Source: an uncultured Alphaproteobacteria bacterium (GTDB lineage: Bacteria; Pseudomonadota; Alphaproteobacteria; HIMB59; GCA-002718135). From it: 64,000 nucleotides of DNA. Of the stretch, positions 44,569-46,345 are shown piece after piece; within the stretch, counting starts at the first letter, position 1; the number at the start of each line of letters is the position of its first letter. Made by a program: the position numbers and the translations under genes. The notes beneath the pieces are model-generated. The model did not search any database. It saw only the letters and a list, made by a program, of their open reading frames with translations, and was not told the DNA's origin. The stretch spans positions 1 to 64,000 of the forward strand of contig CACHLW010000005.1 of NCBI GenBank assembly GCA_902580765.1. The letters run 5' to 3'.

Positions 44569-45318
44569 ATGGCAGGGCACTCAAAATTTAAAAATATTAT
44601 GCATCGTAAAGGTGCTCAAGATAAAAAAAGAGCAAAAGTTTTCTCAAGACTTGGAAGAGAAATTTCTGTTGCTGTCAAAGTAGGAGGTGAAGATATTGAG
44701 AGTAATATTAGATTAAGATCTGCAATTTCGTCGGCCAAGTCACTCAATATGCCAAAAGATAATATTGAGAGAGCAATAAAAAAAGGTCAAGGAAATGATC
44801 CTGATAGCAATTATGAAGAAGTAAGATATGAAGGATATGGCCCTGAAGGTATTGCAATAATAGTTGAGGCACTTACAAATAATAAAAATAGAACAGCTGC
44901 TGAGATTAGGTCCTCTTTTAGTAAATATGGAGGTAATTTGGGTGAAACAGGAAGTGTTAGTTTTGGTTTTGATAGATTCGGAAATATCACTCTTGATAAA
45001 AACTTAGTAAAAGAAGATCAACTTCTTGAATTTCTTATTGAAAATAATAGTGAAGATTATGAAATTAATGAAACAGAATATTCAATATACTGTGATCAAA
45101 ACGATTTGCATGAACTTAATGATAAATTAATTAAACAGTATGGTCAGACTAACTCTGCAAATTTAATTTGGAAAAGTAAAAATAACATAAATATTGGAAA
45201 AGATACAGCGAACAAACTATTTAAATTACTTGAAGTTTTAGAAGACAATGACGACGTTCAAGTTGTATCATCAAATTTTGAAGTTGATGATAATGTTCTA
45301 TCTTCACTCACAGCCTAA
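44569..45318 (+). CDS. yebC: YebC/PmpR-family protein
   Basis: The 249-residue protein starts MAGHSKFKNIMHRKGAQDKKRAKVF and contains MPKDNIERAIKKGQG and YEGYGPEGIAIIVEALTNN, all diagnostic. Members act as transcription regulators and, as shown for some, in relieving ribosome stalling at polyproline. It opens the yebC-tol-pal block. The normal next gene, ruvC, is replaced by a small nuclease-like gene after 14 bases. Confidence 0.97.
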   Translation: MAGHSKFKNIMHRKGAQDKKRAKVFSRLGREISVAVKVGGEDIESNIRLRSAISSAKSLNMPKDNIERAIKKGQGNDPDSNYEEVRYEGYGPEGIAIIVEALTNNKNRTAAEIRSSFSKYGGNLGETGSVSFGFDRFGNITLDKNLVKEDQLLEFLIENNSEDYEINETEYSIYCDQNDLHELNDKLIKQYGQTNSANLIWKSKNNINIGKDTANKLFKLLEVLEDNDDVQVVSSNFEVDDNVLSSLTA

Positions 45319-45332
45319 TGAAAGGAATATAG

Positions 45333-45626
45333 ATGCCTGATAAAGCCTGGAAAAAAAGAGAAAGAGATGTTGCAAGTTATTTCAATGGGAAAAGAACACC
45401 TTTGAGCGGGGGTAATGGTAAAGTAACAAGAGCTGATGTAATTCATGAAGACTTATTTATAGAATGTAAACTAAGAGCAAAGCATACAGCAATTAGTTTA
45501 TGGGATGATACAGCAAAACTTGCAAAAGAGGAGGGTAAGACACCAGTAATAGCATTATGTGAAAAAAATAGACCAGGGTTTTGGGTTATGGTTCATAGTA
45601 GTGATCTTGAAAAAATAAAAAAATAA
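45333..45626 (+). CDS. Small PD-(D/E)XK endonuclease-like protein in the ruvCAB position
   Basis: The 97-residue protein shows the nuclease core: Glu10 in KRERDVASYF, Asp35 in TRADVIHEDL, and Glu44-x-Lys46 in FIECKLR, in the order and spacing of the PD-(D/E)XK fold, with TPLSGGNGK between. It resembles small phage or archaeal-type Holliday-junction resolvase and VRR-like nucleases. It lies between yebC and tolQ, where alphaproteobacteria have ruvC-ruvA-ruvB-ybgC. An AGGAATA site precedes the ATG; tolQ follows after 5 bases. A resolvase role is inference; restriction or repair nuclease is the alternative. Confidence 0.72.
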   Translation: MPDKAWKKRERDVASYFNGKRTPLSGGNGKVTRADVIHEDLFIECKLRAKHTAISLWDDTAKLAKEEGKTPVIALCEKNRPGFWVMVHSSDLEKIKK

Positions 45627-45631
45627 TTATT

Positions 45632-46345
45632 ATGGCAGATATTAATAGTACAAATTTATCGACAGAGGCTCCAGATTTTTCAATGCTTGCTCTGTTCATG
45701 CAAGCTGACCTTGTTGTCAAATCTGTAATTATAATTTTAATCTTAGCTTCTATTTATTCTTGGAATGTAATAATTTCAAAAATATTAAGAATTAGACAAT
45801 TAAAAAAACTTGAAAAAGAATTTGAAGATATTTTTTGGTCTGGAAATTCATTTGAAGATTTATACGAAACTTTAAACTTTAATCAGACAGATCCAAAATC
45901 AAAATTGTTTTGCGCTGCAATTCTAGAGTGGAAAAAAAGTAAAACTCAGTTTGAAAATGAGACATCTGATATTAATTCTTTAAAAGATAGAATGATGAGA
46001 TCAATGACAGTGGTTTTTAATAAAGAAAGTGAAAATGTTGAAAGAAATTTAACATTCCTTGCAACTGCTGGATCAACTGCACCTTTTATTGGATTATTTG
46101 GAACAGTATGGGGTATAATGAATAGTTTTAAATCTATTGCAATAGCTCAAAATACAAATTTAGCAGTAGTTGCACCAGGAATTGCCGAGGCCCTTTTTGC
46201 AACTGCATTAGGTCTTTTTGTGGCTATACCTGCTGTAGTTGCGTACAATAAAATCTCAAATGACTTATCAAAATATTTTATATCCTTGGAAACATTTATG
46301 GACGAATTCTCAACAATTTTTTTTAGACAATTAGAGAAAAAATAA
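45632..46345 (+). CDS. tolQ: Tol-Pal system proton channel subunit TolQ
   Basis: The 237-residue protein has three membrane helices (about 22-45, 135-160, 170-195) with NLTFLATAGSTAPFIGLFGTVWGIM and PGIAEALFATALGLFVAIPAV, which are MotA/TolQ/ExbB signatures. With TolR it uses the proton gradient to energise TolA in outer-membrane constriction at division. It is the first of the tolQRAB-pal-cpoB series; tolR follows after one base. Confidence 0.97.
   Translation: MADINSTNLSTEAPDFSMLALFMQADLVVKSVIIILILASIYSWNVIISKILRIRQLKKLEKEFEDIFWSGNSFEDLYETLNFNQTDPKSKLFCAAILEWKKSKTQFENETSDINSLKDRMMRSMTVVFNKESENVERNLTFLATAGSTAPFIGLFGTVWGIMNSFKSIAIAQNTNLAVVAPGIAEALFATALGLFVAIPAVVAYNKISNDLSKYFISLETFMDEFSTIFFRQLEKK

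Follow-up and report, generated by a model that had tools for sequence, protein, structure and literature searches.

In textbook accounts, bacterial recombination ends with RuvABC, and RecU, which Gram-positives use in RuvC's stead, has the PD-(D/E)XK fold. Non-orthologous replacement of RuvC is already known from RecU, a case in which RuvAB was kept and works with the replacing enzyme (PMC3864405). On the phage side, RuvC of phage bIL67 is by itself enough to make E. coli delta-ruvABC UV-resistant again, so that this resolvase is active without RuvAB, and phage resolvases tend to be promiscuous towards branched DNA (PMC3864405). The locus compared here with these systems lies in a 64-kb window (the whole stretch of DNA that was analyzed) and belongs to the alphaproteobacterial order HIMB59/AEGEAN-169.

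The nuclease gene between yebC and tolQ

The gene block of the window reads tkt - zapA-like - fau-like - ymdB-like - yebC - X - tolQRAB - pal - tilS - ftsH, where X is a gene for a small nuclease. On comparison of sequences, the block from tkt to ftsH is ancestral; in other alphaproteobacteria it recurs with ruvC-ruvA-ruvB in position X. The usual order on which the original prediction relied, yebC-ruvC-ruvA-ruvB upstream of tolQ, was seen in an alphaproteobacterial control locus (G157), where tolQ lies further downstream. The nuclease ORF at 45333-45626 (+), with an ATG start and 97 codons, begins 14 nt after the end of yebC, and its position and the 5 bases separating it from tolQ agree with what had been predicted. 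From these sequences, yebC, the nuclease gene and tolQ look like one transcription unit. The features are as follows, with the basis of each in parentheses.

45333..45626, + strand: CDS of a 97-aa PD-(D/E)XK nuclease of PHROG 2002 type, putative stand-alone Holliday junction resolvase (ORF, profile match, invariant residues, model, dN)
45321..45326, + strand: Shine-Dalgarno-like AAAGGA, 6 nt 5' of the nuclease ATG (sequence reading)
45360..45362, + strand: Glu10 codon, motif I, helix 1 (invariant in 37 rows; helix 2-16 of the model)
45435..45437, + strand: Asp35 codon, putative metal-binding D (invariant; aligns with D33 of P. furiosus Hjc)
45462..45470, + strand: Glu44-Cys45-Lys46 codons, E-x-K (E44 and K46 invariant; strand 41-47; aligns with Hjc E46-x-K48)
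44569..45318, + strand: yebC, left boundary of the slot (ORF call, neighbour survey)
45632..46345, + strand: tolQ, right boundary of the slot, 5 nt past the nuclease stop codon (ORF call, neighbour survey)

The candidate catalytic residues named in the original prediction (Glu10, Asp35 and Glu44-x-Lys46) lie where it had placed them and stand in the PD-(D/E)XK motif order of E in helix 1, D, and E-x-K. None of E10, D35, E44 and K46 varies among the 37 aligned relatives, which include viral ones, and W6, F17, R21 and G26 are likewise invariant; every full-length orthologue aligned thus keeps its catalytic residues, the conservation for which a check had been proposed. PHROG 2002, named for phage Holliday junction resolvases, was the only library family matched by the window protein (E 1.3e-10, residues 3-94) and was matched by 37 of the 37 relatives, PHROG names being themselves remote-homology calls. 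Eight of the 37 also matched PHROG 244 (RusA-like resolvase), and one had a marginal match to PDDEXK_15 of Pfam. No Pfam or NCBIfam family was matched by the window protein, no Pfam resolvase family (Hjc and RecU included) was matched by any of the 37 members at E 0.1, and a PDB sequence search with the protein and its profile yielded no match. The window nuclease does not belong to the RuvC family (RNase H fold, PF02075).

A confident AlphaFold2 model of the nuclease (pLDDT 84, pTM 0.77) places helices at residues 2-16, 53-66 and 89-96 and strands at 41-47, 70-77 and 80-86, giving an alpha-beta core with E-x-K on a central strand, and its best fold matches are members of the PD-(D/E)XK superfamily. 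In a PDB structure search the first 14 matches were all archaeal Hjc Holliday junction resolvases, and were weak (E 0.0056-0.036, probability 0.77-0.99, TM about 0.5); as the original prediction had proposed, the protein is nuclease-like. Matches to viral structures were stronger than those in the PDB, and some are to proteins that carry a Holliday junction resolvase annotation. An hhalign comparison with a profile of four Hjc/Hje sequences (E 7.6e-5, probability 62) pairs E10-R11, R21, D35 and E44-x-K46 with E9-R10, R25, D33 and E46-x-K48 of P. furiosus Hjc, residues that matter for Hjc activity. The original prediction had likened the nuclease to those of phages or archaea; the phage half of this stood, with PHROG 2002 and viral relatives of up to 79% identity, and the archaeal affinity did not.

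Distribution of the nuclease and loss of RuvABC

The nuclease is encoded in 126 of 150 genomes of the order, including all 20 that are at least 90% complete, and lies between yebC and tolQ in every one of the 117 chromosomal loci in which both neighbours are present. The complete chromosome of genome G002, a single contig of 1,410,127 bp, carries exactly one copy. Mean amino acid identity to the window within the genus is 0.92 for the nuclease, 0.78 for yebC and 0.84 for tolQ, and for the order's second family the values are 0.72, 0.57 and 0.50, respectively. When compared with seven neighbouring genes, the nuclease had the lowest dN of the eight at all three depths, synonymous sites being nearly saturated throughout. 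The occupation of this slot is not due to chance, because all 117 loci agree and dN stays below that of the seven neighbours at three depths. On these sequence comparisons, the gene is real and essential-looking.

Three loci stood out in this survey. Genome G128, of the window's genus, carries at L120:6390-6710 a version in the yebC-tolQ slot that is 72% identical, its tolQ, tolR and tolB being 83-87% identical; this version is possibly a second replacement in place. A contig labelled Gammaproteobacteria bacterium TMED225 (L062) holds the nuclease gene at 97% identity and is probably a mislabelled or misbinned piece of the HIMB59/AEGEAN-169 order. On one contig (L125, G134:C14) the gene occurs twice, in opposite orientation and near both ends, as expected of a single-cell amplification chimera.

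The loss of the canonical Holliday-junction machinery, which the original prediction had proposed, was supported by profile searches in which ruvCAB was not found elsewhere in the order genomes checked. Neither RuvC (PF02075) nor RuvA (PF01330) was matched in any of 45 genomes, one of them the window's own assembly and the remaining 44 each at least 85% complete, with both models positive in the expected controls. For RuvB, the signal that PF05496 gave in every genome was rejected, the matches being weak and in proteins of other AAA+ sizes, and RuvB was therefore re-examined with the TIGR00635 equivalog. In seven genomes of the order, the complete G002 included, the best score was 27 bits, against a cut-off of 299 bits and scores of 419-451 bits in true RuvB carriers. 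RuvA, RuvB and RuvC are thus absent where the nuclease is present, RuvB by the equivalog model in those seven genomes. Among junction-processing proteins, the search in the order covered RuvA, RuvB, RuvC and RecG. RecG, for which a check had also been proposed, was sought in 13 genomes of the order and is kept at full length in 12; the exception, with no full-length match, is G008 (94% complete).

An even sample of 289 alphaproteobacterial genomes comprised five from the order, all with the nuclease and without RuvC, and 284 others, none with the nuclease and 270 with RuvC. The mutual exclusion with RuvC that had been anticipated is therefore complete in this class sample. Across the phylum, a set of 398 genomes contained the nuclease in the window's own genome only.

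Phage relatives and other occupants of the slot

Relatives sharing 40-79% identity were present in 51 viral contigs; two phage records, one of them a Bacteroides phage, contain relatives with 46% identity. A representative of the close marine group carries genes for terminase and a head-tail adaptor, which confirm it as a phage. Room downstream was available in 39 viral loci; in 32 of these the gene for the terminase large subunit comes within 700 bp, and in many the small subunit lies upstream. In a tree of the relatives the deepest branches are all viral and the two bacterial families stand apart among viral rows, with a single clade left unrejected by the AU test (p 0.18). A phage origin of the order's nuclease is likely on this phylogeny, one capture and two both being compatible with the test.

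Several phages (L174, L175, L176, L178, with L172 similar) encode the C-terminal half alone, of about 65-80 aa and from residue 47 on, which adjoins the terminase large subunit in L174-L176 and L178. The half bearing the catalytic residues was not found near the C-terminal-half genes of these phage loci. A conserved, catalytically dead remnant suggests a second role, perhaps related to packaging.

Examination of RuvC-less genomes outside the order yielded three further families, f84, f40 and f92. Family f84, which is probably SAR11, spans at least 14 genera with genomes of 0.7-1.6 Mb and a GC content of 29-31% in three loci. Its slot protein is a 164-aa RuvC-like protein (PHROG 1770, E 4.9e-37) with invariant D7, E67, D143 and D148, encoded in 73 of 79 genomes of the family and located beside yebC, and then tolQ, in 21 of 21 loci (among L202, L203, L204 and L214-L233). 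Family f40 carries a 168-aa PDDEXK_15/PHROG 244 nuclease between yebC and tilS (L205:7440-7943, L206:1745-2248). RuvB was absent in the three f84 genomes and in the three f40 genomes tested. By sequence family, the f84 protein is unrelated to the window nuclease, and the f40 nuclease is at most a distant relative within the PD-(D/E)XK superfamily; PHROG 244 is also touched by some of the window nuclease's viral relatives. Neither the PHROG 1770 type nor the PDDEXK_15 type was found in the complete chromosome G002. In family f92 (L208 and L209; complete genomes of about 1.5 Mb), RuvC and RuvB are missing and no long ORF lies in the interval from yebC to ybgC, which looks like plain decay of ruvCAB with no replacement in the slot.

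It is unlikely, given their different families, that three phage-type nucleases came to one place from a single event. The strongest argument that the slot's job is junction resolution is that three different nucleases are found there, each of a named resolvase or phage-endonuclease family. We consider it likely that streamlined marine alphaproteobacteria have undergone at least three independent losses of the entire RuvABC system, with a single phage-type resolvase, from another family each time (PHROG 2002, RuvC-like PHROG 1770 and PDDEXK_15), taking the place after yebC, so that RecG plus a phage resolvase would carry recombination in some of the ocean's most abundant bacteria, probably in SAR11 as well.

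Proposed function and comparison with known systems

We put at roughly 0.84 the probability that the nuclease is a small, probably dimeric PD-(D/E)XK Holliday junction resolvase of phage type that took over the whole RuvABC job in the ancestor of the order. The trade of RuvABC for one gene is visible in the genomes, and junction cleavage by its product is what we infer. In the proposed mechanism, a nuclease dimer would bind four-way junctions, and E10, D35, E44 and K46 with Mg2+, the metal being held by D35 and E44, would nick two opposing strands, resolving junctions made by RecA or by fork reversal. The branch point would be moved by RecG, not RuvAB. The nuclease would have come from a phage, and the close phage form at the terminase genes would debranch DNA before packaging.

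The nuclease might instead be a structure-specific enzyme with another main task (flaps, forks or general debranching), in a slot inherited from its insertion, while junctions are dissolved by RecG and topoisomerase or cut by an unrecognised enzyme. A general debranching role fits too, because phage resolvases accept many kinds of branched DNA (PMC3864405), and the position of the phage versions beside terminase genes and the partial exclusion of other resolvase families speak in its favor. However, the nuclease and RuvC exclude each other exactly in the class sample, three different nucleases of resolvase or phage-endonuclease families occupy one place, and the constraint on the gene is the strongest in the block; all of this counts against a different task, which we regard as unlikely.

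The PD-(D/E)XK fold is common in restriction and defence, and close relatives occur in phages, as would suit a selfish, restriction-like or anti-phage gene settled in the operon; yet the window protein has no PADLOC match and no partner genes, and the nuclease is universal and fixed in one slot, not patchy, making this origin very improbable. That RuvABC is missing from incomplete assemblies alone, with the nuclease incidental, could be argued from the window's own assembly, which is 66% complete, but RuvC and RuvA are found in none of the 20 genomes that are at least 90% complete, the complete 1,410,127-bp chromosome among them, and the assemblies do cover the ruv slot, which is occupied. We assign this explanation a negligible probability: it is refuted as regards RuvC and RuvA and, in the seven genomes searched with TIGR00635, as regards RuvB. 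A stand-alone phage-type junction resolvase in place of RuvABC remains our preferred reading.

With this reading, RuvABC appears to be missing from a whole order of very abundant ocean bacteria, its stand-in being one 97-residue phage-type enzyme, and the three slot replacements offer a repeatable natural experiment on the minimal machinery with which a free-living cell can resolve recombination intermediates. In the literature searched, in which subscription journals were thinly covered, we found no report of full RuvABC loss in a free-living order with a universal phage-type stand-in, and the papers on HIMB59/AEGEAN-169 among it do not mention ruv genes.

Among known systems, the phage resolvases of PHROG 2002 share the sequence family of all 37 members and the same active site, with viral members reaching 79% identity; they lie beside terminase genes, whereas the window nuclease gene is fixed as a core gene throughout a bacterial order and lies in the yebC-tolQ operon. 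Archaeal Hjc/Hje provide the best, though weak, fold match and, in the hhalign comparison (probability 62), the same ER...R...D...E-x-K order, and are likewise small stand-alone enzymes that act without RuvAB, but the window nuclease has no Pfam resolvase match, is about 15% identical to them, is shorter and has its affinity with phages. RecU of Gram-positives, as a PD-(D/E)XK enzyme in RuvC's stead, is the known precedent for such a replacement; in contrast, RuvAB is retained with RecU and lost in the order, and the window nuclease has no match to the Pfam RecU family. Finally, RuvC of phage bIL67 is similar in that this one phage resolvase is sufficient in E. coli with no RuvAB (PMC3864405), but it belongs to the RuvC family with an RNase H fold, and so resembles in kind the f84 replacement and not the window nuclease.
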